A stretch of 64,000 bases of DNA from Gammaproteobacteria bacterium (GTDB lineage: Bacteria > Pseudomonadota > Gammaproteobacteria > Pseudomonadales > Azotimanducaceae). Made by a program: the position numbers and the translations under genes. The notes below the pieces were generated by a model that saw only the letters and a program-made list of their open reading frames with translations, was not told the origin of the DNA and made no database searches. The stretch's first letter is position 1; every line of letters begins with the position of its first letter. Shown here piece after piece: positions 40,571-60,236 of this stretch. Where the stretch lies: the NCBI GenBank assembly GCA_009840545.1, contig VXNM01000014.1, positions 59,197-123,196 on the forward strand, in the 5' to 3' direction.

Positions 40571-40590
40571 TACTGTTTATTTATACAGTA
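40571..40590 (-). promoter_or_regulatory. ICE operator element, copy S1 (LexA-box-like), upstream of RAQPRD-traC operon
   Basis: On the minus strand TACTGTATAAATAAACAGTA: a near-perfect dyad with CTGT-N8-ACAG, as in LexA boxes. The 11-base core ACTGTAYAAAT is shared exactly with S2, S3a, S3b and S4. It is 89 bases before the first codon of the transfer operon. Confidence 0.7.
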
Positions 40591-41751
40591 TCCCTGTTTG
40601 GACTCAACGCTTGCAGGTTTAGACATCAAATGCATCCAAAGCTAATGATCCGGATTGCATGATTCAGTTCAATGGATCCATATTGTCAGGGACTCATGCG
40701 TCGTTGTAAGCGTGATTTACCGACATATTCAAGCAAAATGCCGATGAGATCGACATGAACCATAAGCAATTCGATAGATATAGGACTATATTGAGGCGGA
40801 ACGTTGGTCGCAAGCCGTCGCGACTGCGAGGAGGTCATCGTGTTCACGGCGGAAGCACTATGGGTCGAATTGGCAGTCGTCGTCAGGATACTAGTAACCG
40901 GGGCCATCTGAGCCGCCTGCGCTCGTTGCATCCTTGAGATTCGCCCCACTCCCTACGTTCGCGTGCTAGTGATGGCAGCTACTGCCCACGACAAACCCCG
41001 CTAAAAAATTATCGAGACTTTAAACCTATATGTCAATATGGGTGCCTATAAATCTACTTTAAAACGATCAACTGACTAAACAGAGCACTCCAATAGGACT
41101 CCTCACACATGTAGGTGTCGTACGCAAAGACCAGCTGCATAGGAGCATATCGGGTTTCGCAACATGGGTCCGATACTTGCCTTGGCTAAAGCACACTTGA
41201 CGCAACTAGATCGTGTTCATAGTGGTGCGGTTTCGTTGTTCCATCCATCTATCCATTGACAAAGAGGATTATTCTGTCTACGCTCAAAATCCCGCACTTC
41301 CGCTTTCTTAACAGTATCTTTACGGGATTTTTGCTGAACACCCGTATATTTCGCGTCCGTTGTTGACTCACACCAGTCTTAGACTGTCCTTCAAGAAAAT
41401 AGCGACTTTCACAGCCCCCAAGAAATCAACAATCGAAGATCGCTTTGGGTTGTTCACCCATCGATTTTGAGTTCATTCATGGACGCGTTTGAGCCAAGCA
41501 TTCAGCCCCAATGATGCCAACGAAACCCAATAGCTATAGACACCAATCAAAGCAAGTGGCATCCTGAGCAAGAGCGGCTCTCTATACGTCTTCAGACCAT
41601 AGTTTTCAAATTCGAAATATTCATGCTTTTTTGAGAGCAACACAAGCTAATTTGCACGAATAAATCTTAAAATTTTGACAAACACTAGCGCAGGAAGCGA
41701 CACGCTAAGTGGCCTGTCGATGTGCATATCCAAAACCGAATTGAGTGACAA
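40591..41751. other. Long divergent intergenic region before giant protease
   Basis: About 1.16 kb with no convincing gene; a minus frame at 40686-40949 has no recognisable content. It is more A+T rich than its surroundings towards the protease start. A TTGACA is present at 41257 but no good partner -10 is near. It must hold the promoter of the plus-strand protease and perhaps remnants of the insertion that brought the block. Confidence 0.45.
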
Positions 41752-44700
41752 ATGAAAAATCGCAGACTGCTAATTCTGTCCCTTTCGTTTGCAGCCGCAT
41801 CGCTTGTAGCAATCGCGATCGTCTGTTTGAACATCGGGAACCCCACTCTTGCCGAACGAGACCACATTGAACACATTCGTTTGGAATTGACGAATCAAAT
41901 TCGAAATTATGAGGACGAAGCCGGTGCACCCCAACACATCGACAATTCTCTGGTCTCGTCCAAAGAGGAAAAATCTCGTTCCACGAGCGTTCAGCCCTCA
42001 CAATTAGCCACAACAGATCCCAATTACTCGACCGTGTCTACCACTCACGAAATCACGATCGAGAAATCGGCAGATCGCGCCCAAACCGACTCTCCCCATC
42101 TCACTAGCGAACCTCGAAAGATCGATTGGTTGGAAGATCCTTCAGCTCTTGATCGACTCATTGAAGCGGCACATGTTGCAGGTCGTGATTGGAGCTTTGC
42201 GTGGTTACAACTAACTAGTCCTCAAGATCACGAATTCGTGACACAGACCCTCGCCAATTTGGATGTGCAAGCGATAGGTTTCTCCGGTGATCTGGTCAGG
42301 GTCAAAGCGTCTACTGATCGCGAGAGCTTAAATTCGATCATCGAACTTCCATGGGTCAACGGACTTGGGGCATTGCCCTTTGAAAGAAAATTCGACGCCC
42401 ATCTTGAGCAACAACTGAATGACTCCTCGCCAAACCCCCTACCCGTATTCATAACCGTAATGGATTCGAACATGCAACAGGCGTTCCGACAGGAACTCAA
42501 GCAAATTGGAGTTGCAACTGGTTACTTTGATTCATCAATTCGTGCGATGGCTGCGCTTGTCGATCAGAAGCAGCTGGAGTTAGTGTCTAGACTAGATTTC
42601 GTCCAGGGGATTGAACCAATTGGAATTGTGGAGATTGCGCATGACTCCGCAATCCCTCAACTAGGTGCAGACGGACTGCGAACAATCGGCAACACAAACG
42701 GTGCATATGAGGGAATCAGTGGGGTATCAACACCGATAGCGGTCATGGACACAGGCTTGAACACCAATCACGTCGCGATTTCAGAACTGCGCAAGAGTAT
42801 TTGCGGCGAGAACTTTGTGGGTTTTGAAGATGACGATCTCTGGTTCGATGATCATGGACACGGAACCCACGTTACGGGAACCGTGGCCGGCAGTGGATAC
42901 TTTCTCCCAAGTCTAGCAGGAGTAGCTCCAAGTGTAGAACACATTCGATTTGCAAAAGTGCTGTCGTCTTTCGGGTTTGGGGATGCATTGGGAATCATCC
43001 GAGGGATGGACTATTTAGGAGAAGAGACGACATGCAATTTCAATGGGAACACACCAGACCCCGTCAAACCTCTTGTCGTCAATATGAGCCTCGCCTTAAC
43101 AAGCTTGACTAACGACAGCAGAGGATTGGGAGCTAGAAAGCTTGATTCAATGGTCTGGAGCAAAAAGCAGGTCTACGTGGTGGCCAACGCAAACTCCAAC
43201 ATATATGGTTACTCAAACTATAGCGCAGCAAAGAACTCCCTGGCCGTCGCTATGGCGTGGGATAGTGGCGACATAGCCTTTCTCAGTAGCCGGGGTCCGT
43301 CAATAGATGGACGACTTCTACCTTTGATCACAGGAACCGGTGTCAGTGTTGTCTCCGCGGAAGGCGGTGGAGCCTGGGATACGTACAGGTCTGCAAGCGG
43401 AACCAGCATGGCGTCTCCTGCGGTTGCTGGTGTGGTAGCACTTTTGATGGATGCATCACACGACCACCGGGAGCAACCCGCTCTGGTTCGCGCTCAACTG
43501 ATGGCGAGTGCAATCAAGCCTGATTCTTGGTTTGAGTCCGACTCAATGTTTCCTCGAAACAACACGAACGGCCCCGGTTCCATTCAGGCGGAATTTGGCA
43601 TGGGCTTGGCGTCCGCAAGAACTAGCATTCTCAACAACGAATCCGAGAACGGGTGGACGAGTTCAGGGGTCGCAGTAGAAGTAGAGCATGGCGATACCGC
43701 CTACACCGACATCGAAGTACCCGAAGGAACAAGTCGAATCGACGTTGTAATGACATGGGACGAACAGGCGACCGATACCATCGCGAATGCGGTGCTAAAC
43801 GACATGAACCTTTGGCTCGACTACGAGGCTGATTGTGGCGTAGGTCCCTGTGGCGAATACTCGTCTCGTTCAACGATCGACAACGTCGAGTGGATTATCT
43901 TGAATAATCCGGAACCGGGCGTCTATCGCCTGAAAGTCGAAGCAGCCCGCGTATATACCGAGGCTCCACGCGTAGGCGTTGCATGGACAGTTATCCAAGG
44001 GGATTCCTCTCCCAAACTCTCAATCGAACCAAGTCAGGAAATCTTCGAGACTCCAAACGGACAATCTCATGACCACGATGTGGAACTGACGATTACATCG
44101 GACTCCTATGTTTCCTCGGGCACTAGATTGCATGTTGATTGCAGAACTTTGGATGGCGATGCGTGCGGAACGATTGGCTTCAAGCGGAGAAACGATAGCA
44201 CGGTTTCGAGACGGTATGGAGGCCAAGTTCAACGTGAAGATGGAGTTGAGCTCGTGCTAGAGGAGCAAACTTTCCTAACCATTGGGGAAGTCGCATTGGG
44301 TGAGACACAAGACGTCGTCGTGCACTTGAGTACGGAATTTGACGAACCCGTATGGATTTACTTTACCGTGTCTTCTTGGAACGGAGATGGAGACAGTACA
44401 GCAGTACTATTTCGTCCTGCGGGGGACGACAGCATGAGTCCCGCAATTGAGAGTCCCGAGAACGCTGCGTTCCTTGGAGCAGTGCCCATCGTCGGCGATC
44501 GAGGTTCATTCGATTTCGACCCGCTACGCTCATGGACTGAAGGTGGAGAACCTACGGTTCTCACAACTGGGTTGCGTCCTGCTCGTTCTGTCTGGTTTAA
44601 GTGGCAACCTGACGAAACAGGACTGGTCACATTCCAAGTGTCACCGCGATTTAGGGACGATGAACTACTCAACTCGCATGCACCTTCGATTGATGTATTC

Positions 44701-47700
44701 CAACTGTCTGAGGGGTGCTGTGGTCCTGCAGCGTCTCCCAGAGTCGCGTCATCGGTTTGGTCCGCTCAGTTGTTCGCTCTCGAGGGCTACGAATACGGCG
44801 TTCGTGTAAGCCACAACAACGCATCGATACCACTCACGTTGAACTGGATGAGTGGAGAACGTCCAAGAAACGACAACTTTGCTAACGCCGTTGTCTTGGC
44901 AGGGGCAAGTGGAGAGACATCGGGTAGCAATCTAGGAGCAACGCTGGAGCCTGGTGAACTATATGGCCAACTTGCTTCTACAGTTTGGTACGAGTGGACT
45001 GCCCCCGAAGACGGAAGTTGGCGGTTCCAAATTGAAGATACGCTCATAGTGCAGGTACTGGCTTTTGTTGGAGACACCGTCGGAGACCTGAGACTAGTGT
45101 CCGATGTGCGTAGACCAGGCGAGCCGATACAGTTTTCCGCGAAGGAAGGCGGCACTTATCACATCATGGTTGCATCTCCTAGCTCCGACTCCGGGGGATG
45201 GGAGTTCGACAAACTTTCGTGGGAAAAAGTCGAAGGGTCCGCTAGCAGCAACGACATGTTCGAATTCGCCAACGTACTAACCGACGACCAAAACGGCAGT
45301 CAGTTTGTATCGACGGGTGGCGGCGCGAGCGTGGAACCCGATGAACCGATGGAGAGCGGCATTCAAACTCGATGGTGGAAATGGAGAGCACCAGCAGCAG
45401 GAACTTTTACCTGGTATTGGAACGAAGCAACCCTAGATGTTGCAGTCTTTTCAGGCAGTTCGTTTTCGCAACTAGAACCTTCGATGAGAACAGACGACAC
45501 AACAAGCCGACTGGAATTTGCAATAGACGCTAACCAGGATGAAGAGTATTGGTTTTCGATAGGCCGCAAACAGCACGAGTTTTTGGCCTACATTCCGAGT
45601 GTCAGCTCAAGCACCACACTTAGTTGGGGCGCTACACCCGAAAACAACACGCTCGACGGAGCGATCAGTCTCAGTGGTCCACGAGGATCGGAAGACGGCA
45701 GTGTTCAGTACGCGACTACTGAATCCGATGGGCTCTCTGGTCTAGGACACTCTTCCCTGTGGTACACCTACGAAGTTGAAGAGTCGGGCTGGTATCGCTT
45801 TTATGTTGGTGGGTCTTCATTCCAACCTACCCGCCTCGCGGCGTTTAATCGATCGGGAGAGAATCAAGATCTTGAACTCATTATGGTTTCACGTCCTGGG
45901 GGATTCTTCAGCGAATATCCAATCGAAGTCTACGTCTACGGAGAAGCAGGCACTTCAATTGTTCTCCGTGTAGGAAGTACTGTTAGCCATAGTTCAAGTT
46001 CATTCACTCTTCGATGGGAACCTAGCTCCGCTCCTCAGTGGTTGCGCTATCTCGGACGGATTGCGCACGGACGTCGCGACGGATCCGGAAACATTGCAAA
46101 GCTTCCCACACCCGGGGAATCGGTATTCAATGAAGACGGTACTGCTCTCTATATCGCCACGCAGTCCGGTTTGAACACTTTCAGTCGAGACCCTGAGTCA
46201 GGCGAGTTGACTTACGAGAACCGATCCCATGATATTCACCCACAAAGTTTCTTGCTGTGGGATGCCCATAGATCTAGACTCTACGCGAATCACGCCGATA
46301 TGTGGTGGGTGTACGAACCGGATGAAGATGACTCTCTGAAACTGGCCCTGATCGATGTTCACTACGGATTGGGAACAACGACCACTAGCAATACATACGG
46401 TACTCCCTCGTTGTATATGGAACCGGAAGGGAACTTTCTATACCGAACCTTGGCGAACGAACAAACCGTCTATACATTCGATTCAGAAGGCAAGCTCGTT
46501 TATTGGGGTGGCTTCGCAGTGCCGCGGCGCGCGATATTTCCTTCCCAACGAGCGAACGATTGGTACAGCACCACCAACAGTACGATCTTCTTGGACAGTC
46601 GAATCGTGGGAAGTGCTTTCTTTGAGAGAAACGGATCTCACGCTATGTCGGGCAGAAACACCCGAGTGATTGGATCCAATCATGCTGGCGAGTATGTCTT
46701 TGTAGCTGACACCTATGTTGCTTCTGTTCTTCGTAAGGACTTTGAAACTGGCGAGCTATCCAGGGAAGCAAGTGAGAACTTCTTTAGCCTTGGGGTAACC
46801 GATTGCGGAGGTGTTTTCGTACGTAATGACAAACTTGCAGCCGATGTAATTTGCGGACGCGGGGGTTATGTTTTCGAGTTCGACTCCGATTCCGAAGAGA
46901 TAGACCTCTCCGACAACTTCGTGAACGCAGGGTCCTTCTTCCGAGTTCAAGACAGATTTGGGCGAATCGTACCTCGGTACGCTTTAACCGAGTCCAAGTC
47001 AGTCACCGCGAGCCCTGACGGTAGACACCTCTATGCGTCAACGAGAGATCACGGTGTTCTCATCTTTGAACGATTTGGCAATCTCGTCATTGAAGAGAAC
47101 GAAGAGGTAGAAGATGCGACTATCGAACCCAGGCGACTCGATCTTCTGCGAGCCTCGCCGAACCGAGTTCAATTTGGCGACGAGTCTGCAATCGATGGTT
47201 GCTTGTCCGCGAGCGGTTGGACGATTGACGGCGTTAGTTACCAGGTTGCAAGTTCTAAGTGGCAAGAACGTAGTTTGGGCGATGAATGGCAAGATATTGA
47301 TGACACCTTGACCTATTTGCAACTCTGTTCCTACAACCCAGGTGAAGAGAACGAGTACCGCATGGTGGCACAGTTTGCTATTGATGGAGTCCTTGTCGAC
47401 TACACAAGCAATTTCTTCGCCAACCTGCCATACGATTTCTTGGCTAGCCTTGTGGTCGAACCAGGCTCGGTGACCTTAAACAATCAAACCTACACCGAAT
47501 GCGCGACAGTCTTTGATACCACCATCAATGAAGTGGTTTATTCCGTCGCAAACTCGAAGTGGCAATCGCGAGAGAATGCGGATTCGCCTTGGTTGGACGT
47601 GGATGGTACGGAGACGGCTGGAGAACTCTGTCCCTACGAACCAAGTGACGATCAGGAATATCGCCTAGTCGGAGTTATGACGGTCGCAGGAGAACGTGGC

Positions 47701-47730: not shown

Positions 47731-47754
47731 CTTGATCTTCTAAAGATTCATGAC

Positions 47755-47787
47755 CAGCGAAGCGTCTTTGAAGAGGACGCTTCGCTG
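47755..47787 (+). terminator. Strong hairpin after protease gene
   Basis: A perfect 12-bp stem, CAGCGAAGCGTC with GACGCTTCGCTG, loop TTTGAAGAG, 24 bases after the protease stop. No T-run follows, so it is a terminator or mRNA-end stabiliser. A second GCGAAGCGT occurs at about 47850. Confidence 0.65.
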
Positions 47788-49330: not shown

Positions 49331-49336
49331 GAATTA

Positions 49337-49358: not shown

Positions 49359-49396
49359 GAAGACCGCGAACTGCGTGCAGTCGATGTCACCAGGCG

Positions 49397-50369: not shown

Positions 50370-50954
50370 TCAACTCGACTTTGAACGACTCAATTCCTGA
50401 TCGTTTGCGATCCAACGTTCGGTAAGTAACCAGACGGACCGCAGAGGAATGCGAAGTTCCTTGGAAAGTCTGATGTAGGAACCAACATCTGAAAGTCTCC
50501 CATTCGCGTCTCGGTCTGTCATCGACTTCCATTCATCCCACAATCGATCAGCTTCCTCGTCCGTAGGTTCGTGTGGTCGACCTGCATTGGTGAGATCATC
50601 CCGCTCGCGTCGTCGACGAGTATATTCCCTTGTACTCATTCCGTAGAACTCACGAAGCATTTCGAACGGTGCATCTCGCTCAATGAGTACCTGTACGTGG
50701 TCGTCGATTTCGCTTTGGTCCTTCATATAGCGAACCATGGACCAAAAGACCTCTCGGTTGAGTTCAATCGATACGCAATGCGAACGAAGAGAACCCGTGT
50801 GATAGAGATCACGAATTCCGATGCGCTTCATCGCCTCGATTTCTCGATTGCCAACTTGCATTTGCCTCAAAGCTGCAAAGTCTCCTTCAGCGATGCACCG
50901 AATCGCATACATCAAAACGGCCGAAGTAAGTTCGGCCTCCTTGGTTTTGATCAT
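50370..50954 (-). CDS. DUF2857-family ICE regulator (FlhC-like / BisC-type)
   Basis: A 194-residue protein matching DUF2857: VLMYAIRCIAEGDFAALRQMQVG, IRDLYHTGSLRSHCVSIELNREVFWSMV, LIERDAPFEMLREFYGMSTREYTRRRRE, and EADRLWDEWKSMT, ending in LSKELRIPLRSVWLL. As I recall, the DUF2857 protein of ICEclc (BisC) acts with a ParB-like partner (BisD) as the activator of transfer promoters and resembles FlhC. In related ICEs it lies next to parB; here it is about 8 kb away, coupled to an ankyrin gene and placed in the smaller cargo block. Operator copy S2 lies 71 bases upstream. A role as master activator of this ICE is a reasonable inference. Confidence 0.8.
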   Translation of the reverse strand: MIKTKEAELTSAVLMYAIRCIAEGDFAALRQMQVGNREIEAMKRIGIRDLYHTGSLRSHCVSIELNREVFWSMVRYMKDQSEIDDHVQVLIERDAPFEMLREFYGMSTREYTRRRRERDDLTNAGRPHEPTDEEADRLWDEWKSMTDRDANGRLSDVGSYIRLSKELRIPLRSVWLLTERWIANDQELSRSKSS

Positions 50955-51025: not shown

Positions 51026-51045
51026 TAGTGATTATTTGTACAGTA
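51026..51045 (-). promoter_or_regulatory. ICE operator element, copy S2, upstream of DUF2857-ankyrin
   Basis: Minus-strand TACTGTACAAATAATCACTA, with the 11-base core intact and one half of the dyad degenerate. It lies 71 bases before the DUF2857 start and just after the stop of the TIGR03747 gene, so it marks a new promoter in an otherwise co-directional cluster. Confidence 0.65.
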
Positions 51046-51109: not shown

Positions 51110-51835
51110 CTAGAGATACTTCTTGAATCTTGAACTCGCAATTGACAAGGCCAGTCCATTGATCAGAGCGAAGATTGAAATCGTCCAAGCGATGTCTAAT
51201 GTCCACGGCCACGCGATCAGAGTAACGGTGTAGACTAGCGATATAGGTCCCAACAATCGGGTGGAAGTGTTGTATACCCAGGAGCTCTCGCGGCCACCTG
51301 ACCATCTACGTATTTCTCGTCTCACCAAACCGTCGGTCAAGCCGATTGCAAAGAAAAAGGCCATCACAGCCCAACCAACGGTCATGGCAGCAACACGAAA
51401 CGAAATCTCACGAAGCAAACTTGCAGTTGTATGGGAGTGCCGAGAAATGGCCCGATGCATGTCGTCGAGAAATCGCACCGGAAGAGACATCGACTCGGGG
51501 CTCCCGGCTGGACGCTTACTTCTCATTTCCCACTCGGCTCTTGAGCTTCCGAACACAAGATCCACGAGTCCAAGATAGAGCAATCGAACTTTATCGACAG
51601 TTTGAACGGCAAGTCCATTGCAAGAGCGAGCTGCTAGAAGTTCATATTCCTCCGCAGTTCTGTTTTGAAGCCGCGATCCGTCATGCGCTTCCCACAGTCG
51701 ACCCATGCCGCCGAACTCCACAATGATCGCAACGCAGAGGGCGAATACGATGCTGAGAAGCGTCTGAATTTTCCACGCTAGAAGTGCGCCGATGGGACTT
51801 ATGCCCACCGATCTCTTGGAAGGAGCTGTGCTCAA
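51110..51835 (-). CDS. ICE membrane protein, TIGR03747 (PFL_4697, DUF4400) family
   Basis: A 241-residue inner-membrane protein with about four spans: WKIQTLLSIVFALCVAIIVEF near 21-41, VAAMTVGWAVMAFFFAIGL near 150-168, and two near the C-terminus (GPISLVYTVTLIAWPWTL; IFALINGLALSIA). Between the first two is the family segment RLWEAHDGSRLQNRTAEEYELLAA, and the loop GLVRREIRRWSGGRESSWVYN is strongly conserved in this family. It is usually encoded next to traD, as here (16-base gap), and helps the coupling protein or channel. After it, the backbone is interrupted by the smaller cargo block. Confidence 0.87.
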   Translation of the reverse strand: MSTAPSKRSVGISPIGALLAWKIQTLLSIVFALCVAIIVEFGGMGRLWEAHDGSRLQNRTAEEYELLAARSCNGLAVQTVDKVRLLYLGLVDLVFGSSRAEWEMRSKRPAGSPESMSLPVRFLDDMHRAISRHSHTTASLLREISFRVAAMTVGWAVMAFFFAIGLTDGLVRREIRRWSGGRESSWVYNTSTRLLGPISLVYTVTLIAWPWTLDIAWTISIFALINGLALSIASSRFKKYL

Positions 51836-51851
51836 GTCCGACTATTGCATG

Positions 51852-53840
51852 CTACTGGTTTGTAGCTATTGATGAGATGTCCTTTCGGATGTTGGACTGT
51901 TTCAGTGCATTCAAAAGGTCAGTTAGATTTGTCGGCATGTGCGGATCGTTTGTATTGCGAGGCAGAGGAAATTTCACCTTCCACAATGATCCTCCTTCCA
52001 GAAGAGCAAACGCCTGTCCCCGAGGAAGGGCTACTATGTCCGATGGATTCAACGTAAGCTCTTCACTTACCGAGAGCCGATCCTCATTGCGTGCTGTAAA
52101 GGAGAACTTGCCATTGCTTTCCTGAGTGTCAGAGGCTCCTGTTGCGCTCGCTAGTCCCCTAACCTCCACTCTTGGAAGTTGCTTAGTTAGTATCTCAGCC
52201 GTCGCAAGTTCCTTGACCCTCAACATAATGAGTGTGTTGAAGTTCCCAGTTACCTGACCCGACTTAGCCTTGCTTCCAACTCGAGCTTCAACATCTGAAA
52301 TCGTTTGGGTATAGGCGGTCACCTGAAATCCAGTCCCGCCCGACTTATTCAAGAGCGGTACAAACTCGTCTCCAATGAGTTCATTGAATTCATCGGCGTG
52401 GATGCAAACTTGAGGCGGGCGTTCAAAGGGTTGGTTCTCCCCGTTTACTCCAAACTTGTACAAATAGCCAGCAACTGAGACAAGGTCTGCAAACATTGAG
52501 TTGCCGACTGCTCCTGCGACCGTAGTATCGGATAGTGCATCTAGTCCAACATAGACGATTCCTTGATTTCGAATTACGCTAAGCCATTCCATCAACGGAC
52601 GGGGATCTGTGTTGCCTTCAACGGGAGAAATCAACTCGGACACTGGGCCGGTTGTGAGTTTCTCCATCAAGGGTCCGACGGAGGATACGATCTTGTCAAA
52701 GTATGTTCGATCATACTTGAAGGCCGAGACTAGCCCTTCCAATACTGGATCTTCGATCTCAACTGATTGAACGTATTGATAGAGAGCGACGGCTTTGCGA
52801 TCTCTTCCTTTCAATGCGGAGGAGAGATTTCTCTGGTTTATTGAGCGCTCAAGCTGCTTTACCTCCGCAGCCCATCCTGCTGGTTGTGTCCGCATGAGGA
52901 AATTTCGAGTGTATTCGATAAATAACGGTTCAATATCATTGATATATTTCCTAATCTTAATGTAGTTAGGAACCTGTCCCAGAGCGACCAATGCGTGTGC
53001 GATGATGTTCACAAAACGCCACGCAAACTCACGAAACGCATTTGAATTGCCACTGCCCGGCAATTGATTGGCAATTCGCGTGGCTACTTCCGTAATACGC
53101 GAAAACCTTCCAATTGCGTTGTACCTACACGATGCCTCCGGATATCCTAAATGGAACATGAAGAATTCTTCGACGCGTCCCCATCTCTTGGCCTCTGCAT
53201 AGGTTCTCTGAAGCAATTCGGTATCCCCCTTGGGATCAAACACGAGAACCACGTGTCCGTCGCGAATGTCTTGGGAAATGAGTAGTTCTGCCAACCTCGT
53301 TTTGCCAACCCTAGTCGTTCCAAGCACAAGCGTATGACCTACCCTGTCCGCCGAATTGAGCCAAACCGATTTCTTTTTCGGTTCGACACCGTGCAATTCA
53401 GGACGCCCGCTCAATGGCATGGGCGAGGTAGCCGATCCTTGTTTACTCTGTTCAGAACAAATCGCTCGCAGCGCACTGCGAGGAGTCAGATAACTCTGGC
53501 ATTCTGGTCGTCTTGTGTCTGCTAGGCGCTGAGTGTGTTTTTGAGTCCATTGAAATCCTTCACCAAGAAAAACCATTCCGTTCTTTTGAGGAATTTTCGT
53601 TGGACTCATCGACCAGCTCCGACTTCGAATGAGATTCCTCTGATAGTGCAGAATCGAAAGCCCTTGGACTAATCTAGCCAACGCGAGAACTGCAAGTGCA
53701 ATGGAGACTACCCAACAGAATGATCGAGGCAGTAGCAGATGTCCAGGAATGACCATGAGAAAAGTGGATGCGGCGGTACAAATACCAGCTGACCAGAACT
53801 CAACGGGGGCGCGAAGAAGCGCTTCAACAGGGTATTTCAA
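51852..53840 (-). CDS. traD: Conjugative coupling protein TraD (SXT/TOL subfamily, TIGR03743)
   Basis: A 662-residue type IV coupling ATPase that brings the relaxosome to the secretion channel. Two membrane spans lie at about 16-37 and 40-60; Walker A is GTTRVGKT at 174-181 and a Walker B-like VLVFDPKGD follows at about 198-206. The second nucleotide-site motif, VCIHADEFNEL, and QVTAYTQTISD confirm the TraD/VirD4 class. The C-terminus is short, ending soon after the ATPase (FPLPRNTNDPHMP). The gene is intact and directly precedes TIGR03747. The relaxase it serves is not in this window. Confidence 0.92.
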   Translation of the reverse strand: MKYPVEALLRAPVEFWSAGICTAASTFLMVIPGHLLLPRSFCWVVSIALAVLALARLVQGLSILHYQRNLIRSRSWSMSPTKIPQKNGMVFLGEGFQWTQKHTQRLADTRRPECQSYLTPRSALRAICSEQSKQGSATSPMPLSGRPELHGVEPKKKSVWLNSADRVGHTLVLGTTRVGKTRLAELLISQDIRDGHVVLVFDPKGDTELLQRTYAEAKRWGRVEEFFMFHLGYPEASCRYNAIGRFSRITEVATRIANQLPGSGNSNAFREFAWRFVNIIAHALVALGQVPNYIKIRKYINDIEPLFIEYTRNFLMRTQPAGWAAEVKQLERSINQRNLSSALKGRDRKAVALYQYVQSVEIEDPVLEGLVSAFKYDRTYFDKIVSSVGPLMEKLTTGPVSELISPVEGNTDPRPLMEWLSVIRNQGIVYVGLDALSDTTVAGAVGNSMFADLVSVAGYLYKFGVNGENQPFERPPQVCIHADEFNELIGDEFVPLLNKSGGTGFQVTAYTQTISDVEARVGSKAKSGQVTGNFNTLIMLRVKELATAEILTKQLPRVEVRGLASATGASDTQESNGKFSFTARNEDRLSVSEELTLNPSDIVALPRGQAFALLEGGSLWKVKFPLPRNTNDPHMPTNLTDLLNALKQSNIRKDISSIATNQ

Positions 53841-53962
53841 GTATCTGATTTGTGGTTGAGGTTCTCTGGAACCAGGGCTTGGCTTATCGTGTGCAAGCGT
53901 CTAGCAGGATTTTCAATTCCCTAAGACTTGGACCTAATGGTTTCGAGATTGAGTATCTTCGA

Positions 53963-54730
53963 TCAAGGAACCAGTTCTAGTGGGAATTTTTGTGCCTTTC
54001 CTTTTCGAAATAGCATCAGGTAAGGCACAGTGAGAATATTCGGTGCAAGCTCGCTGAGCGTTCCGTTATCGAGATTTAGCGAAACCTTGCCTAATTGCAC
54101 CTCCGAGGGACTGATCTGCACTTCCTGAGCCCAGTTTCGAATCGCCTGTTGATCCGCTCCCTCTACATTTACAAAGTAGATGTCGATACTTTTTACTTCG
54201 TTCTGCAATTTTGAGATTTGTTCGTATACAACCGAACATGCAGGGCAATCTAAGGTCGCAAAGAATAGAATTCGATCATCCGAACTGAGCTTTAAACCAT
54301 TGTTTCTATTGATATTTTGCAACCTCTTGGGATCTATTAGCGGTATCCCTTTGGTCAATTCCGCTATTACTTGATCGTATGCTCGCTGAAACTTCAGCAC
54401 ACGTTCTGCATCTTCAAGCATGAGTTGCGCCCACATCTGCGCATACCGTTCCCTCTCCGCTTCGGACTGAGCATGAATTCCCAAAACTTCGATGGGAGAA
54501 ATCTTTTCTGAACTCAATCGACCTCTAATTCCCAGCATCAGCAAGTTGTGCCGCTCCCACTCCTGAGGGCTTAAACCCCATAGTTGAGCTTTATCGATCT
54601 CAGAGATTGGAAGTGGTACGGATGGAGTGTCCAACCTATCCACCTCGACGATTGCAGTTGATGTGACAGACTGAGAGTTTGCATTCAGTGAAAAGAGCGA
54701 AAGAACGGTACAGATTAAGAAAGTTTTCAT
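53963..54730 (-). CDS. ICE protein with thioredoxin-like domain, TIGR03759 (PFL_4693) family
   Basis: A 255-residue exported protein with a signal peptide (KTFLICTVLSLFSLNANS). The family mark LWGLSPQEWERHNLLMLGIRGRLS is at about 50-73. The C-terminal half is a thioredoxin-like fold with DCPACSVVYEQI, a Cys-x-x-Cys pair, and VPYLMLFRKG near the usual cis-proline. It probably acts in periplasmic disulfide chemistry or as a structural part of the transfer apparatus. In related ICEs it is followed by a lytic transglycosylase and TIGR03765; those are absent, and traD comes directly after a 122-base gap. Confidence 0.87.
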   Translation of the reverse strand: MKTFLICTVLSLFSLNANSQSVTSTAIVEVDRLDTPSVPLPISEIDKAQLWGLSPQEWERHNLLMLGIRGRLSSEKISPIEVLGIHAQSEAERERYAQMWAQLMLEDAERVLKFQRAYDQVIAELTKGIPLIDPKRLQNINRNNGLKLSSDDRILFFATLDCPACSVVYEQISKLQNEVKSIDIYFVNVEGADQQAIRNWAQEVQISPSEVQLGKVSLNLDNGTLSELAPNILTVPYLMLFRKGKAQKFPLELVP

Positions 54731-55080
54731 GTATCAGAGTCTTCAGGTGTTTCAAACTTCAGCTTGGATCGATCCAGGGGACCTTCATCGGTATCCATGA
54801 GTTTGTTGGAATCCTCGGTCTTGTCCGCAACCTCGTCACTTTGGTCAGGCGTGTTCGACGTGGTGTCTGTTCTCTCGCTTGGTGTAAAAGAGAGGTCACG
54901 ATAAGGTATTTTCTCGGAGCGAAATCGACAATTTGAAGCATAATGCGAATTGATAGGTACATTTCGTTCAGCTTTCAGTGCAATTTCTTCATCATTTGGA
55001 CTATCGACTTGATCCGAAATGAGAAGCTTGACGACCACTACGACTGCGCCAATTGCTAGTGCTACAGGGGGGATGATCAT
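54727..55080 (-). CDS. Small single-span membrane protein in ICE operon
   Basis: A 117-residue protein with an N-terminal membrane segment (IIPPVALAIGAVVVVVKLLI, 2-21), then a hydrophilic acidic tail with many Ser/Thr/Asp, probably disordered. Not recognised. It is locked in the operon: it starts with an ATGA overlap with the PilL gene and its stop overlaps the TIGR03759 start in the same way. An accessory role in transfer is inferred only from position. Confidence 0.6.
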   Translation of the reverse strand: MIIPPVALAIGAVVVVVKLLISDQVDSPNDEEIALKAERNVPINSHYASNCRFRSEKIPYRDLSFTPSERTDTTSNTPDQSDEVADKTEDSNKLMDTDEGPLDRSKLKFETPEDSDT

Positions 55081-55520
55081 TCTTGGGCTTCCTTCGACGA
55101 CTGGTCTTTACACTGTTCAAATGCCACCAGTCGATAAATGGGGTCTTGTACGAGGTACCACACAGGACCCGCGAGAGTCTCTAGGATGGACTTGAGAGTC
55201 ATGGGCCCTAACGAACGATGAGACTTCGGAAGTGGCAATGCAAGAAGAACCTCCATTTTCTTGTCCACTTTACTCCCGTGTGCAATTTGATAGCCCTGCT
55301 CTTCAAGCACGTAATCGACTGCATCACCTACAGTTTTCACTGAATCCGGAAATTCGACACTCGAGACTGTCAGGAAAATATCCTGTTGGGCAGAAGTTGG
55401 TATTGGTTGAACCGAGGAATACCGTCCCACTTGAATTTCTTCCTCGGCGACAAGCGTTAAACTCGAGAAATGCACTACAAACAGGCACGCGAGCCCTCGT
55501 TGGATTGTGAACGGTTTCAT
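55077..55520 (-). CDS. pilL: PilL-like ICE protein (TIGR03748, N-terminal region)
   Basis: A 147-residue exported protein: signal peptide (to about residue 24, TLVAEEE following), then VGRYSSVQPIPTSAQQDIFLTVSSVEFP, VKTVGDAVDYVLEEQGYQI and LALPLPKSHRSLGPMTLKSILETLAGPVWYLVQDPIYRLVAFE. This is the conserved region named PilL in ICE transfer clusters, thought to link to the element's type IV pilus or to peptidoglycan/outer membrane. Longer PilL proteins have further C-terminal parts that are missing here, and no other pil genes are seen. It heads the operon that continues through TIGR03759. Confidence 0.85.
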   Translation of the reverse strand: MKPFTIQRGLACLFVVHFSSLTLVAEEEIQVGRYSSVQPIPTSAQQDIFLTVSSVEFPDSVKTVGDAVDYVLEEQGYQIAHGSKVDKKMEVLLALPLPKSHRSLGPMTLKSILETLAGPVWYLVQDPIYRLVAFEQCKDQSSKEAQE

Positions 55521-55707
55521 AGAACATGGTCTAGTTGAGATGCGAGAAGTGTGCAGAAAGCCAAGAGAAATAGAACGAATTTCCCTAGCGCAAGTTGTCG
55601 AGATTTATCCACAGTCGTACTCTCAGGCGCAAAAAAGATCTCTAATTCTCAAGAATGTTCCCGAGTTTCTTCCAGAGATCAAGCTAGAAAGAGGAGTACA
55701 AATTGAA

Positions 55708-55739
55708 AAGCGGGTGCCGTGTTGATTCGACACCCGCTT
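55708..55739 (-). terminator. Hairpin upstream of PilL operon
   Basis: AAGCGGGTGTCG-type stem: AAGCGGGTGCCG (55708-55719) pairs with CGACACCCGCTT (55728-55739) with one mismatch pair, loop TGTTGATT. On the minus strand it is followed by TTCAATTTG. It may end a transcript from the replication operon or form part of the PilL leader. Confidence 0.6.
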
Positions 55740-56320
55740 CATCACTGAACTTGAGAATTTGATTAGCGAATTGAGGTTAGTGCTTTTGACCAGTTCAGGC
55801 AGTTTCGACCTGACAGCGCTTGCGCGATCTTGTCCCGAGGCTACTGCTCGTGTAATTCTCTACCAGAAACCACGATGGGAACTGTAGGTACCCTTTCGTA
55901 TGTCCAGTTTGCAAAAAATGCTTTCTCAACAACCGTTTACGGCAGTTAACTTACCATTTTTCAGAAAAGCGAATTGAGAAGATGGACCCATCGCCGTTCA
56001 ACGGTAACCTCTTCAAGGATCCTAGAGGTTCACGCCACGAATACCGCGCGGCACGGAAACATCATTCGGATGCAACTCTAGGGAATCTATCTCTAAGTGC
56101 GAGAGAAATTGTCTCCAAAACGTGGAGAGATTCTCAGAATAGTGCTTGATTTCCTGGCATTAAGTCTGCATGCTCAAAATCCACTAACAATCTGAATTTA
56201 ACAGCACTTTCTTATGTTAAGTAGGCACTAATACTTCTAACAGCACATGTACGCGTCGCCTCGCGCTCTGTTTTGGCCGAAGACTCGCTGATAGCTCGCT
56301 GTGATACAGAAGATCTACGA
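55740..56320. other. Gap between replication module and PilL operon
   Basis: About 580 bases in which I see no gene on either strand. It contains several short palindromic stretches but no long-range structure I can support. Backbone genes usually present here in related ICEs (topoisomerase, single-strand binding protein, pil genes) are missing, so this may be the scar of a deletion. Confidence 0.45.
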
Positions 56321-56367
56321 GAAATCTCGTTAGTCCAGGTGCGTATGCACCCAGACTAACGGATTTC
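56321..56367 (-). terminator. Large nested hairpin after DUF6573 gene
   Basis: Three stacked stems: GAAATC with GATTTC, GTTAGTC with GACTAAC, and GGTGC with GCACC around GTAT, separated by one- or two-base internal loops. It lies about 20 bases after the DUF6573 stop and probably ends the replication-module transcript or protects it from decay. Confidence 0.7.
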
Positions 56368-56387
56368 TTCCCTGATGGCCCAGTGCC

Positions 56388-56810
56388 CTACTGCGCGGGT
56401 AACCGAATGGTCAAGACCGGCTCACCATCGTCTCCACCGTGCGCTAGCACTTGCAGGACAACAGTTCGTGAGATCTTTGACTTGCCATCTCTTGGAACTC
56501 TCTCCAGACGGAATCGCATGCGATCCGCAGAAGGAGAACGTGTACGTACGAAGTCAGCGCATTTGCTGACGACAGCGTAGAGACGGGAATACTCGGTTTG
56601 TGGGATCTGACGCTTGGAATCTTCGTCAGACCACACAACGCAGTCGTCCCAGACGGCTTTGGTCAATGCGACCGGCCATCTGAAACCGACCTGTCGGGAC
56701 ATATCGCCAATGTCGAATATTTCGTCATTGGCAATGGCATCGGCACGAGATCCAGTGTAAGCCGGATCAAGAGCCTTCTGCTCAGGGTTGTCGTTAAAGA
56801 AGTCTGTCAT
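56388..56810 (-). CDS. DUF6573-family protein
   Basis: A 140-residue protein from ATG at 56810; a longer frame exists to 56903 but its extra part covers the structured leader and is not protein-like. Recognisable parts are AYTGSRADAIANDEIFDIGDMSRQVGFRWPVALTKAVWDDCVVW (residues about 14-57, given here in pieces), TEYSRLYAVVSKCADFV, and GEPVLTIRLPAQ. The DUF6573 family is common on plasmids and ICEs next to replication and anti-restriction genes; its function is not known. It is the third gene of the DUF3577/PFL_4669 cluster and has an attenuator-like leader. Confidence 0.8.
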   Translation of the reverse strand: MTDFFNDNPEQKALDPAYTGSRADAIANDEIFDIGDMSRQVGFRWPVALTKAVWDDCVVWSDEDSKRQIPQTEYSRLYAVVSKCADFVRTRSPSADRMRFRLERVPRDGKSKISRTVVLQVLAHGGDDGEPVLTIRLPAQ

Positions 56811-56828
56811 GACTTTCTCCGAGGGTTG

Positions 56829-56880
56829 AAAAAGCCGGGCAGACCCCTGCCCCGACGGGAAGTGGAACTCCCCGGCCGGG
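56829..56880 (-). promoter_or_regulatory. Attenuator-like structured leader of DUF6573 gene
   Basis: On the minus strand a long hairpin (CCCGGC with GUCGGG, then GGGGAGU with ACUUCCC, 56880-56851) is followed by a short one (GGGCAG with CUGCCC, loop GGGU) and UUUUU (56833-56829), ending 19 bases before the ATG. The GCCGGG in the first hairpin can instead pair with CCCGGC next to the U-run, giving two exclusive structures as in transcription attenuators. Confidence 0.62.
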
Positions 56881-56937
56881 TTGGAATATAGAGAGCGAAG
56901 CACTCAAGCTGCAAGCTAAAAGCCTGCTGCAATTGCG

Positions 56938-57339
56938 CTAAGCAACGTTTTCGATCTCTGATACCGATACGCCATTGACGCGAGCCCAGTCGATACCGAC
57001 TAGTCTCGCTTTCAAATTCACGCCAACTTGACCCTCTTTGGGACCCTGTCGGTAAGTAAATGTCGTGGCATAGAGGCCGTTCAATCGAAAGCGCACCAAT
57101 ACTTTGTCGCCTTGCTCTACATTGGGCGCCAGATGGCGAATGTAGGAATGCGTAGTACGTCCAGCGACTTGACAGTCGATGTACGTGTATCGAACGCTCT
57201 CGTCTACGCCCCGGAGGGCGGATATAGTCACCGCCAGAGTCGGTAGACCATCTGCAGGTTCGAATTCTCGAATTCTGCTGATGTAACCCACTCCGGTTGT
57301 TAGCAATGCGAAGTTCTTCGCACTCCCAATTGTGGCCAT
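56938..57339 (-). CDS. STY4534-family ICE replication protein (DUF3577)
   Basis: A 133-residue protein from ATG at 57339, fixed by GGAGGAAG just upstream; a longer frame (to 57486) covers the structured leader. It has FALLTTGVGYISRIREFEPADG, LAVTISALRGVDESVRYTYIDCQVAG, HLAPNVEQGDKVLVRFRLNGLYATTFTYRQG and GQVGVNLKARLVGIDWARVNG, the DUF3577 pattern. The family resembles single-strand DNA binding folds and is tied to ICE replication in databases. It lies between PFL_4669 and DUF6573, all co-directional. The 207 bases upstream form four perfect stem-loops. Confidence 0.87.
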   Translation of the reverse strand: MATIGSAKNFALLTTGVGYISRIREFEPADGLPTLAVTISALRGVDESVRYTYIDCQVAGRTTHSYIRHLAPNVEQGDKVLVRFRLNGLYATTFTYRQGPKEGQVGVNLKARLVGIDWARVNGVSVSEIENVA

Positions 57340-57370
57340 CGCACTTCCTCCTGGATGGTGAACAATACAT

Positions 57371-57521
57371 CTTCGACATCCTGTCGAAGTTGTGACAGAA
57401 ACATGGTTTCGTCTGAGACAAACCCATGCACGCTTGTAGGGTCGGACGAGTTTCCCGTGGAAAACTCGTCTGGGCGTCGATTTCACGACCCGACGACGCC
57501 TCTACCACTGAAACGCAGTGG
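57371..57521 (-). ncRNA. Structured 5' leader of DUF3577 gene: four stem-loops
   Basis: In the minus-strand transcript four perfect stems occur in order: CCACUG/CAGUGG (57521-57505), GGCGUCG/CGACGCC (57500-57473), GACGAGUUU/AAACUCGUC (57470-57445) and CUUCGACA/UGUCGAAG with a three-base loop (57389-57371). The ribosome site GGAGGAAG follows directly. Such density suggests a cis-regulatory RNA, a protein-binding leader or a single-strand DNA origin rather than chance. Confidence 0.6.
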
Positions 57522-57546
57522 CCACGCATGTCTATTTCAGAAATCG

Positions 57547-58314
57547 TCAAGTATCGTTTTCCTGAACAATTTCTTCGATTTCAATAAATGGAGGTAGCGC
57601 CTCGCCCGCTCCGGACAGAATCGGAGGTGCAAATGCAGCTCTTCGTTTGCCTTCCAATATGTCCTGTGGAATAACTCCCATGTATCTCTTTGCAATCTGT
57701 CCGTCTGCTTGCCAGGAGTGTGAATTTGCTCTATCAATCCCCAAGTGTCTGAATCGCAAGGGAATGTTGAACACTCCGCGAATTTTTGACGCCACTGAAT
57801 GAGTTATCGAGGTCGTGTCCCGCCTTGCCAATCGACCGATGTGACGAGCAGTTAACAGTTCGCAGGCGAGAGAGTCAAACTCCGCCAGCATTTGTGCAGC
57901 TCGATAGGCGTAGGGAGATGCAAATCGCAACTTTATTCGGAATGGTTCGCGATTTTGCGCCGGAACGGCAATAAATGGCCTACCCGTGTCAAACAGCTCT
58001 TGTACTGACTCACGCTCCAAGCTGATTCGGGCGTCGACTGTCGAAATGGCGTCGTGAATCTTGACCAGCCACCAATCTGCAAACGGATCATTGGCCTGTG
58101 CAGCATGCCAAATCAGCCTCAATCGATCCGCGAAACCTATCAGACCTACGATTTGAGCTTTTCCCTTTGCGCGCCGACCTCTAATCAAGAGTTGCGCATA
58201 GGTAGTTTGAAGAGTCAACCAAACATCGCTTCGCAACGGTTCGAAACTCGCGTTTCGGGTTTCGCTGATTGAGGAACTGACACCCAAGGCTTCTGCAAGA
58301 CGCAGTGCAACCAC
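57547..58314 (-). CDS. ICE protein, TIGR03761 (PFL_4669) family
   Basis: A 255-residue cytoplasmic protein of the PFL_4669 family: DVWLTLQTTYAQLLIRGRRAKGKAQIVGLIGFADRLRLIW, DPFADWWLVKIHDAI, FASPYAYRAAQMLAEFDSLACELLTARHIGRLARRD and YMGVIPQDILEGKRRAAFAPP are the conserved blocks (given in short parts across the protein). Its role is unknown but it accompanies parB and DUF3577 in the maintenance/replication module. Start is GTG. Two overlapping operator copies (S3a, S3b) lie 30-65 bases upstream, so it heads an operon with DUF3577 and DUF6573. Confidence 0.85.
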   Translation of the reverse strand: MVALRLAEALGVSSSISETRNASFEPLRSDVWLTLQTTYAQLLIRGRRAKGKAQIVGLIGFADRLRLIWHAAQANDPFADWWLVKIHDAISTVDARISLERESVQELFDTGRPFIAVPAQNREPFRIKLRFASPYAYRAAQMLAEFDSLACELLTARHIGRLARRDTTSITHSVASKIRGVFNIPLRFRHLGIDRANSHSWQADGQIAKRYMGVIPQDILEGKRRAAFAPPILSGAGEALPPFIEIEEIVQENDT

Positions 58315-58344
58315 AATAGCCCCTTCCGATTTCCATTTGATAGT

Positions 58345-58379
58345 TACTGATTATTTATACAGTGTATATTTATACAGTA
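58345..58379 (-). promoter_or_regulatory. ICE operator elements, overlapping copies S3a and S3b, upstream of PFL_4669 operon
   Basis: Minus-strand S3b (58379-58360) TACTGTATAAATATACACTG and S3a (58364-58345) CACTGTATAAATAATCAGTA share the 11-base core and overlap by five bases. They lie 30-65 bases before the GTG start, close enough to act as promoter or operator. The same element could also affect the short rightward frame at 58397. The remainder of the gap to 58821 shows no other gene. Confidence 0.68.
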
Positions 58380-58396
58380 AATGAGGAAATAATTCA

Positions 58397-58555
58397 ATGG
58401 ATGAAGAGAATATCCATAGAAATCGAAGCAGGTCACTGACTGGGCATGTGTATCAACTCACACTGCTAGCGCCAAACATAGGCGATCAATTGCTGGCACA
58501 AGCTATGGTTAGATCGAGAGATTGGTCCAATTGCCTCTGTCAGCGTACGCTCTAA
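58397..58555 (+). CDS. Possible small protein divergent from PFL_4669
   Basis: A 52-codon frame (DEENIHRNRSRSLTG start, RDWSNCLCQRTL end) with GAGGA about ten bases before its ATG. It is divergent from PFL_4669 and begins 18 bases from operator S3b, an arrangement often seen for small regulators, but composition and sequence give no family. Low confidence. Confidence 0.22.
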   Translation: MDEENIHRNRSRSLTGHVYQLTLLAPNIGDQLLAQAMVRSRDWSNCLCQRTL

Positions 58556-58821
58556 GTCATTCAAAGGAAGATGAAGCTACACGTACCTCTTGAGATAATT
58601 TTCGATCTTGGGCTGCTAGAACAAGGTAGGATTCGTAAGAGCTGAGTGTTGGTTACCTCTAAGTTTCGGCATGATCTGAAATATTGGTACTACGGTGTAC
58701 GAGAGAATGAACACCAACAGCACAAACTGCTTTGATTAATCTGTAAAACGTACCTATACGGACATATTTTTTCTATTAGTCAAGCGAACGAGCCTCTGCT
58801 ATGTCCTATTCTCCAGTCAGT

Positions 58822-60183
58822 TTATCCTGTAGGGCCACGACTTGAGAGAGGTTCTGGTGGGTCTGTGCGTCTGTTTTTGCGAATCAACCGGACAGCATCC
58901 CATAGATCGATCAATGCCCTCCAATCTTCATCATTGAGTTCGGTCCACACAGTCACATCTAGCGGTCGGTCGTGAGATCCAGCGAAAACGTCTAAGTAGT
59001 TCCATAACTGGTACTGTGTCGTCGACGAGTCACAGTCTGGCTTCGCAACAATTTGGTACCCGAATTGCGTTGACACATTTATTATACATTTGTTCAGGTT
59101 ATAGCTATTGCACAGATGTGAAGCCGCAGTCCAAGCAGACTCTCGAAGCTCACCAATCGTGCGTTGAGCAATAACTTCCCGCTCTTTGCTTACAGTGTCG
59201 TTTGAAGAAAGCGTGGTGTTGCAATCAGGCTGATTGACTCCATCGCTTGAGGAAGTTTTCGTTATCTCATCACGATTAGACTCGGTCGTTTTTTCGACTA
59301 AGACAGGTCCTAGCGATCGGTTCACGGGATCGGTCGATGCAACGGGATTACCATCATCGTGCGAAACAAGCTCATCGAGTCCGTAATACGGCTCTAAGCC
59401 ACTAATCTCACCCAGGTAATTTGCCTTGTACCTGACTCTCTCGATTAAGTCTTCGACTTCAGTGCTTTGTGATGCTGCCTCCTTAAGCAGACGTGCGTAG
59501 AGTTCTTTGAAATTCGCACTCAGTTCAATCTGGTCTTGCCAGTGTTCGTTCGCTTTGGTTTCAATTTCACGCAGTTCGCGCACGTCGATCATGCTCAATT
59601 TATTGAGTACCTCAATGGAAACTCTTGGTTGAAGCCGATGCACGAGATATTCCATGTAGCTAAAAGCCGACTGGCTAATGGGGTACCCATTCGAAACCAG
59701 AAATAGAACAGCATCACGCTGAGGCATGGTCTTCGATGGTTTGCTGTTACGTTCAGAATCCACGATGTGTACGATGGCAATCGCTCTGGATGCAAAACTG
59801 TAGCGCTTGTGTACGTGATTTGTGATGACGTGCGCCAATTGTGCCCTTGCCAAGCCAGGCCATTCAGAGACAACGCATTGAACGGTGGCAAAGGATTCTT
59901 CTCCTGTCTCATCGTAGAGTCGAGACAGTACCTGAAGCCGAGAATTTCCACCCGCGATAGGGACGAAGACTTTTTCGTTCGGGACTTCTGCCACAACGAG
60001 AGGGTTCTGTAGGCCCACATGCTTTATGGATTCGTACAGTGACGAGTCGAGCACGTGATGTACTGAATTGGGCTGGTATTGAAGTGGCTCAATCTCATCC
60101 AGACTTAAGAGCCGCTCCTTCGCTGTCTCGAATGTAAAGTCTTCAGGCAATGTGGCTTCGCTGAGTTTGGTAGTGGGCACCAA
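58822..60183 (-). CDS. parB: ICE ParB-family protein (TIGR03764, PFGI-1 class; BisD-like)
   Basis: A 453-residue ParB-type protein. N-terminal ParB/Srx nuclease-like core: LLSLDEIEPLQYQPN, SIKHVGLQNPLVVAE, IAGGNSRLQVLSRLYDETGEESFATVQCVV, then VITNHVHKRYSFASRAIAIVHI and a helix-turn-helix region (about 160-200). The TIGR03764 mark LEPYYGLDELV is near 280. The C-terminus (about 360-440) is a further domain. In ICEclc the ParB-like BisD acts with BisC (DUF2857) as a transcription activator, so this protein may be both a partition and a regulatory factor. The start is TTG, or GTG one codon on. parA is not found beside it. Operator S4 lies 33 bases upstream. Confidence 0.87.
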   Translation of the reverse strand: MVPTTKLSEATLPEDFTFETAKERLLSLDEIEPLQYQPNSVHHVLDSSLYESIKHVGLQNPLVVAEVPNEKVFVPIAGGNSRLQVLSRLYDETGEESFATVQCVVSEWPGLARAQLAHVITNHVHKRYSFASRAIAIVHIVDSERNSKPSKTMPQRDAVLFLVSNGYPISQSAFSYMEYLVHRLQPRVSIEVLNKLSMIDVRELREIETKANEHWQDQIELSANFKELYARLLKEAASQSTEVEDLIERVRYKANYLGEISGLEPYYGLDELVSHDDGNPVASTDPVNRSLGPVLVEKTTESNRDEITKTSSSDGVNQPDCNTTLSSNDTVSKEREVIAQRTIGELRESAWTAASHLCNSYNLNKCIINVSTQFGYQIVAKPDCDSSTTQYQLWNYLDVFAGSHDRPLDVTVWTELNDEDWRALIDLWDAVRLIRKNRRTDPPEPLSSRGPTG

Positions 60184-60216
60184 TTGCTTCGAGTTAGTCT
60201 GTTCTTGTATTTGATT

Positions 60217-60236
60217 ATATAAACATTTGTACAGTA
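60217..60236 (-). promoter_or_regulatory. ICE operator element, copy S4, upstream of parB
   Basis: Minus-strand TACTGTACAAATGTTTATAT: the 11-base core is intact and the second half of the dyad is lost. It lies 33 bases before the parB start. If the core's TACAAA acts as a -10 box, the distance to the start codon fits a short leader. Confidence 0.6.

Follow-up and report, generated by a model that had tools for sequence, protein, structure and literature searches.

Control of a mobile element by the host's SOS repressor LexA has been described for the Salmonella genomic island SGI1, where gel shift and induction experiments demonstrate that LexA binds and represses the promoter of the sgaDC activator genes at a box reading TACTGTAAAAAAACACAGTA, binding being shown for this box and not for the one at sgiAT (PMC9927553). 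The transfer-competence regulon of the integrative and conjugative element (ICE) ICEclc involves BisR, AlpA and BisDC, with a DUF2857 domain in BisC and a ParB domain in BisD (PMC7423338), and a motif common to eight of its nine bimodal promoters has been tied to BisDC, with binding not confirmed (PMC9286271). For the IncI1 plasmid pTF2, direct LexA control of three tra genes was judged unlikely by the authors (PMC12211044). We have analyzed a 64-kb stretch of contig VXNM01000014.1 of a gammaproteobacterium, referred to as the window, that carries an element with transfer genes of the PFGI-1/ICEclc class and in which five copies of a LexA-box-like core had been noticed in front of element operons (the original prediction). 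Four of these sites, upstream of a PFL_4669/AcaB family gene, a DUF2857 (BisC-like) gene and the RAQPRD-TraC operon, are in our judgement likely operators of the host LexA, and as read from the sequence the element is probably switched on by DNA damage in its host.

Core sites and their likeness to SOS operators

The core ACTGTAYAAAT is found five times in the window, in all cases on the minus strand (40579-40589, 51034-51044, 58353-58363, 58368-58378 and 60225-60235, corresponding to sites S1, S2, S3a, S3b and S4), where 0.04 copies are expected; none of 100 shuffled sequences contained five or more, and the window holds no further copy. The distances to the start codons are 89, 71, 30, 45 and 33 bases in the same order, and copies, strand and spacing are all as originally described. 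S3a and S3b form direct repeats that are 15 bp apart. When the complete 20-bp consensus was searched with up to three mismatches only S1, S2 and S3a were retrieved from the window, with 0.00 expected. The description of the element as a dyad was correct for S1, the only site with a full CTGT-N8-ACAG; the ACAG is changed at one or two positions in S3a, S3b and S2, and the right arm is gone in S4. The strict dyad was rejected as a common feature, being confined to S1 and arising about once per window by chance alone (1.04 expected).

In order to score the sites against independent operators we used two matrices. The strict matrix consists of 11 recA operators of other genera, with all operators of the window's genus left out, and the symmetric 14-operator matrix comprises 12 distinct recA operators and two nrdA boxes, all from outside ICEs. 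The recA operators of the latter originate from 16 of 18 recA promoters, with genomes G137 and G157 left out for want of a clear box and three of 21 promoters not included; the operator of G336 was taken as equal to that of G182, and one operator is shared by the window's own genome and G315. (G denotes a genome, G000 being the window's own, L a locus stretch and C a contig of G000.) With the strict matrix, S1, S3a, S3b and S2 rank first to fourth in the entire 64 kb with 18.1 to 27.3 bits (Table 1), and the next match reaches 7.9 bits. As a control, 39 of 40 column-permuted matrices had no top-four site near the S sites, and the remaining one had a single such site. The 14-operator matrix yielded 28.2 bits for S1, 25.7 for S3a, 20.7 for S3b and 18.8 for S2, followed by 8.5 for the next match. 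Measured against TACTG(TA)5CAGTA, S1 agrees in 18 of 20 positions and S3a in 16 of 20, while the SGI1 sgaDC box agrees in 16. An operator of the gammaproteobacterial type, close to TACTG-N10-CAGTA and located by a promoter, is found at S1, S3a, S3b and S2, and not at S4.

The proposal that the core is a direct LexA target is thus well supported at four sites and fails at the fifth. S4 obtains 1.4 bits with the 14-operator matrix and matches the consensus in 12 of 20 positions, and the best score in the 150 bp preceding the window's parB (1.9 bits, 14-operator matrix) was reached by 53 of 400 shuffles, to the point that S4 was rejected as a LexA operator. It is probably a related half-site that would no longer bind LexA well; LexA may have lost its tight hold on the parB of the window, or this gene may depend on a different factor.

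Table 1. Predicted sites and the genes behind them in the window. Scores of sites refer to the strict matrix.
Feature	Position	Strand	Sequence	Context and evidence
S1, predicted LexA-type operator	40571..40590	-	TACTGTATAAATAAACAGTA	upstream of RAQPRD-TraC operon; 27.3 bits
S2, predicted LexA-like operator	51026..51045	-	TACTGTACAAATAATCACTA	upstream of DUF2857; imperfect right arm; 18.1 bits
S3a, predicted LexA-type operator	58345..58364	-	CACTGTATAAATAATCAGTA	upstream of PFL_4669; 24.6 bits
S3b, predicted LexA-like operator	58360..58379	-	TACTGTATAAATATACACTG	over -10 of TTGAAT-N17-TATAAA; 21.2 bits
S4, half-site	60217..60236	-	TACTGTACAAAT	upstream of parB, followed by TATAAT; 2.9 bits
ParB-family gene, BisD-like by family and place	58822..60183	-		TIGR03764 120.6 bits, below cut-off 143.75; no Pfam match
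PFL_4669/AcaB family regulator	57547..58314	-		PF08900 1e-53; TIGR03761 170.9 bits
DUF2857 (BisC-like) gene	50370..50954	-		PF11198 2.4e-37; ankyrin gene next
RAQPRD, first gene of type IV secretion system (T4SS) operon	40182..40481	-		PF09686 5.3e-25
Remaining T4SS operon: DUF2976, DUF3487, DUF2895, DUF3438, TIGR03752, TraC	33381..39909	-		family matches
Downstream of PFL_4669: DUF6573, PilL, TIGR03759, TraD-like coupling protein, DUF4400	51110..56903	-		family matches

The host assembly (3.39 Mb in 14 contigs) encodes one LexA (237 bits) with the reading head SPNASEEHLKAL, one residue off that of E. coli LexA, and across the genus the head reads SPNA[SA]EEHL[KR]AL, which is of the E. coli type. 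Eight matches to ACTGTAYAAAT are present in the assembly, five in the window and three outside. One of the latter ends 35 bp before an imuA-imuB-dnaE2 SOS cassette (C6:26082; dnaE2 was identified by eye from its translation), the second lies within an open reading frame (ORF) of L010, and the third, at C5:734014, is surrounded by short ORFs only. With at most one mismatch, TACTGTAYAWATAWWCAGTA occurs at five places in the assembly, namely S1, S2, S3a, the position C2:188355 in front of a second ICE-type parB, and recA; with at most three mismatches it occurs at ten, and the reversed pattern used as a control at none. The weaker matches include C5:567921, which precedes a gene with the appearance of mnmG, and C2:236204, between ORFs not known as SOS genes, as well as C12:593079 and C5:950693. 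The recA operator of the host, TACTGATTTTATATACAGTA, scores 23.6 bits with the strict matrix and recurs unchanged in G315, a member of the same genus. The top match in G157, and likewise that in G105, precedes a gene recognized by eye as nrdA, which encodes class Ia ribonucleotide reductase and commonly belongs to the SOS genes. The notion that the core is absent before host genes had to be abandoned in view of the imuA and recA boxes. The refuting condition named in the original prediction, many host matches of equal quality, was not borne out, as only few were found.

Two side observations concern these host loci. At the mutagenesis cassette (L014:11129-16480, plus strand, on C6) the operator arms are spaced by 7 bp rather than 8, and ankyrin-like repeat genes, recognized from translations only, stand beside nrdA in both G105 (L119) and G157 (L118).

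The sequence shows the sites, where they lie, their resemblance to independent SOS operators and their recurrence in near relatives; LexA binding, repression, induction and an effect on transfer are what we infer from it. In the undamaged cell, LexA dimers would cover or flank the -10 elements of three promoters, those of PFL_4669/AcaB, DUF2857 and RAQPRD-TraC, so that the element's regulators and transfer machinery would stay silent; upon DNA damage, RecA-driven self-cleavage of LexA would lift repression here and at recA alike. The left half, which is invariant, would then serve as operator arm and -10 hexamer in one, and because of this double role all sites would point in the same direction. 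The core of S3b is the -10 element of a TTGAAT-N17-TATAAA promoter, retained as TTGAWT-N17-TATAAA in the window, G412 and G315, and S1 overlaps a possible TTGAGT-N16-TATAAA promoter, while S2 and S4 have no good -35 element at a matching spacing. The original alternative of a shared -10 element accordingly applies to S3b and S1 and not to S2 and S4, and it is compatible with LexA control. That the core is such a promoter element only, with no regulator reading it as an operator, is in our view very improbable: it would leave unexplained the conserved upstream CTG and the right arm of a 20-bp dyad that reaches 18-27 bits against SOS operators.

We attach still less weight to operators of another dimeric repressor of the element, of the CI/SetR type or with a different helix-turn-helix, that happens to use a LexA-like dyad. 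Such a repressor has a precedent in SXT/R391, whose CI-like SetR also answers to RecA (PMC4542580), but the same dyad stands at the recA and nrdA promoters. No candidate was recognized among the ORFs scanned, a weak argument given that only part of the ORFs was covered.

A third alternative deserves more attention, although we consider it unlikely. The core could be the site of an activator encoded by the element, a DUF2857-ParB complex like BisDC or an AcaB-like protein, and its likeness to LexA boxes partly accidental. This would suit a left half that is invariant and always points downstream, even at S4 where no dyad is left, as well as the direct repeats S3a and S3b. Genes like those for BisC and BisD are both present, and ICEclc, which uses BisDC, has a 27-bp motif in eight of nine bimodal promoters (PMC9286271). 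In relatives without the dyad, look-alikes of the left half are seen by eye at PFL_4669, DUF2857 and RAQPRD, such as AACTATATAAATGTTCATTC in G406 and ACCTATATAAATGAATAGTA before RAQPRD of G315. An activator of this kind would however not explain why recA (in G000 and G315) and nrdA (in G157 and G105) are preceded by the same motif, and elements of other genera possess the same DUF2857, ParB and PFL_4669 genes without the motif (none of 66 at parB). LexA is favored over a BisC/BisD-type site because the same box precedes recA and nrdA.

Counterparts in related elements

Conservation in related ICEs, which the original prediction had named as a check, is partial. Of 18 genomes of the genus, 15 encode PFL_4669, and none of the three that lack it exceeds 87% completeness. 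A box upstream of it is shared by G412 and G315; S3a reads CACTGTATAAATATTCAGTA in G412 (26.1 bits) and is weak in G315 (10.8 bits), and S3b is an identical 20-mer in both, with -35 elements TTGAAT and TTGATT at N17. Note that in G412 the PFL_4669 tandem is kept nearly letter for letter in flanks that are otherwise changed. Upstream of DUF2857, counterparts of S2 are found at the same place in G315 (TACTGTACATATATTCAATA) and L212 (TACTGTACATATCATCACTA, 14.7 bits), the DUF2857 protein of the latter being 88% identical; in the six genus elements without such a box, DUF2857 often closely follows parB. As evidenced by the 14-operator matrix, the top three matches in 176 kb around the G315 element, in which the stretch from parB to TraC takes up about 85 kb, are those before DUF2857, PFL_4669 and parB, whereas in G412 the tandem at PFL_4669 provides the two highest-ranking matches. 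In the elements of other genera that were compared, boxes at PFL_4669, DUF2857, RAQPRD and parB are lacking.

The parB upstream regions were compared for elements with at least 700 bp of DNA in front of the gene. After 12 duplicate loci had been dropped, 79 of the 91 remaining sequences entered the count; in G405 the DNA upstream was too short, and for 11 others ParB did not align near the protein start (G403, G406, L212, L233, L235, L239, L243, L251, L269, L274 and L291). The set comprises 13 elements of the genus, two of them from the window's own genome (the window and C2), and 66 loci of other genera that include near-identical elements and do not represent 66 independent cases. A LexA-like box of at least 6 bits, mostly imperfect, precedes parB in 12 of the 13 genus elements, the window being the exception, versus none of the 66 others; at 8 bits or more it is present in 11 of 13. 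The observed score in the 150 bp upstream was reached by at most four of 400 shuffles in these 12 elements, as opposed to the 53 noted above for the window. From the start of the box to the probable start codon the distance is 44-71 bp, with a second, better-scoring box at 102 bp in G157, these distances being subject to the uncertainty of the starts. Among the nine more distant genus elements with DNA upstream of parB, the parB site is the best match of the whole stretch in all nine with the 14-operator matrix, and with the strict matrix it is the best in six and the second in three. The boxes follow the sub-lineages, with TACTATAC-N5-WACAGTA in four of five elements of one and ATATGTWYATWTWAWCAGTA in four elements of another, and in five of ten genomes the agreement between the parB box and the imuA promoter of the same genome was reached by at most five of 300 random sequences. 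Because sites of 10-17 bits also occur elsewhere, the case for these boxes, which score 6-13 bits, rests on their repeated place and not on their score alone.

A small ORF stands directly before parB in 47 of the 66 elements of other genera, versus none of the 13 of the genus. Its product (L252:7147-7461 and L261:7187-7492, plus strand) has about 100 residues and no Pfam match; in view of its sequence it may belong to the small helix-turn-helix proteins and be an unnamed regulator. It may be that the SOS system of the host has taken over from a regulator of the element.

Two further observations were made in the course of this comparison. The box at C2:188355 (22.4 bits) starts 44 bp before the gene for the second ICE-type ParB (L019:1544-2827), a protein with 28% identity to the ParB of the window (E 7e-30) and no Pfam match; in the surrounding 80 kb the remaining 17 query proteins gave no match at 1e-5. 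Palindromes of the sequence GATAACCNGGTTATC occur in two to four copies between DUF2857 and PFL_4669 in G157, G105, G411, G413 and G414 (L106, L107, L174-L175, L177 and L176). They are candidate parS sites for the ParB of those five elements, and were discarded as a competing regulon motif, being absent from the window and from the G315 and G412 stretches.

A number of results weigh against LexA control. S4 fails the LexA test in spite of an intact left half, and therefore the left half may be conserved on its own by something; with only this half and a TATAAT at parB, the site is the main weak point and keeps the activator alternative alive. Boxes at PFL_4669 and DUF2857 occur only in the near sub-lineage of the window; those at PFL_4669 are restricted to two of 14 other genus elements, with at most 3.5 bits in the remaining 12, and those at DUF2857 to two of eight, with at most 0.9 bits in the other six, and in all three elements that have a DUF2857 box its right arm is imperfect. 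S1, the strongest site, is without a strong counterpart in the three RAQPRD upstream regions compared (5.4 bits in G315, 1.3 in G411 and -2.5 in G157). Sites of 10-17 bits are also found away from these promoters (12.5 bits in G412, 11.3 in G315 and as much as 13.7 in loci from other genera), the highest being a 17.4-bit site, CACTGACAAAAAAGACAGTG, inside the TIGR03759 gene of G403 (L178-L179, joined position 34479) that may be due to chance or be an internal operator. Among SOS genes proper, the lexA promoters hold poor boxes (8.5 bits in G000 and lower in 13 other genus genomes) and the imuA promoter boxes are mixed across the genus; the match between parB box and imuA promoter was no better than chance in four of ten genomes and marginal in G412 (35 of 300).

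In consequence of these counts, with boxes at PFL_4669 and DUF2857 in a few relatives, weaker ones at parB in most and none at RAQPRD or in other genera, the wiring of four operons to one element envisaged in the original prediction would belong at most to the window's sub-lineage, and in the window S4 is not LexA-like; the feedback proposed along with it is hypothetical. For the genus as a whole we tentatively put forward that a resident family of ICEclc-class elements has passed control of its master switch to its host. The small gene before parB that looks like a regulator would have been lost, with parB acquiring its own promoter with a LexA-type operator; in a sub-lineage, operators would have been added at the AcaB-like and BisC-like genes and, in the window, also at the T4SS operon, such that damage would release regulators and machinery at once.

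Gene content and class of the element

The genes assigned originally were recovered for the RAQPRD-TraC operon, for DUF2857 with the adjacent ankyrin gene, for PFL_4669 and for DUF6573 (56388-56903), while parB was recognized only below the TIGR03764 cut-off and the gene at 56807-57550, formerly labeled DUF3577, had no Pfam or NCBIfam match at 0.001. Matches to TIGR03755 and TIGR03756 (TraU) are located close to the window's left end, and TIGR03748, 03752, 03755, 03756, 03759 and 03761, T4SS genes of the PFGI-1/ICEclc class, were all found above cut-off. DUF2857 and ParB-domain regulators are encoded with the transfer genes, as in a BisDC regulon of the ICEclc type, the two genes not being adjacent. 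In spite of the T4SS genes, a search of the window's own assembly, which is 96.47% complete, gave no match to a TraI_2 relaxase (PF07514), and for this reason it is not certain that the element still transfers today; it may be defective, or a different relaxase may serve it. As to an integrase, the only signal was a weak match to Phage_int_M at 20052-21953, which with 22.1 bits stays under the cut-off of 27 bits.

The leader between S1 and RAQPRD contains a perfect 10-bp inverted repeat (40531-40556, minus strand), AAGGATTGAA and TTCAATCCTT separated by a 6-base loop and not followed by a T-run, and it folds better than shuffled sequences (z -2.52, 3 of 200). A short ORF at L011:15816-16307 (minus strand) matches just the HNH part of IscB/Cas9d models, below cut-off.

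Comparison with known systems

Direct LexA control of an activator is already known from SGI1 (PMC9927553). In the available parts of the open-licence literature we found no report of LexA operators on transfer genes or bisDC-like genes of an ICE of the genomic-island (GI) class. If true, LexA control of several operons in a GI-class system would span the BisC-like and AcaB-like regulators as well as a structural T4SS operon, and DNA-damaging conditions would directly release transfer genes. The contrast between the genus, with a box and without the small ORF before parB, and other genera, without the box and usually with the ORF, allows a swap of the element's own control for that of the host to be tested.

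The window resembles SGI1 in having a LexA box, here a predicted one, before activator genes of an integrative element. SGI1 differs in that it is mobilizable, depends on IncC plasmids and uses an FlhDC-type activator (PMC9927553), whereas the window element encodes its own T4SS and its boxes precede a BisC-like gene, an AcaB-like gene and a structural T4SS operon. With ICEclc it shares a single motif before several core promoters and regulators of the DUF2857 and ParB families (PMC7423338, PMC9286271), but the motif of ICEclc is tied to the BisDC regulon (PMC9286271), whereas we read that of the window as LexA's. The prediction of damage induction also sets it apart from an ICEclc-like element of P. 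aeruginosa, in which DNA-damaging agents did not increase excision (PMC13393423). As on the IncI1 plasmid pTF2, LexA boxes, in the window predicted ones, lie on a conjugative element; the good boxes of pTF2, however, stand before impCAB and dqlB and not before transfer genes (PMC12211044). In SXT/R391 transfer answers to DNA damage via RecA, as is predicted for the window, yet the repressor cleaved there is the element's own SetR (PMC4542580), while in the window it would, directly, be the LexA of the host.

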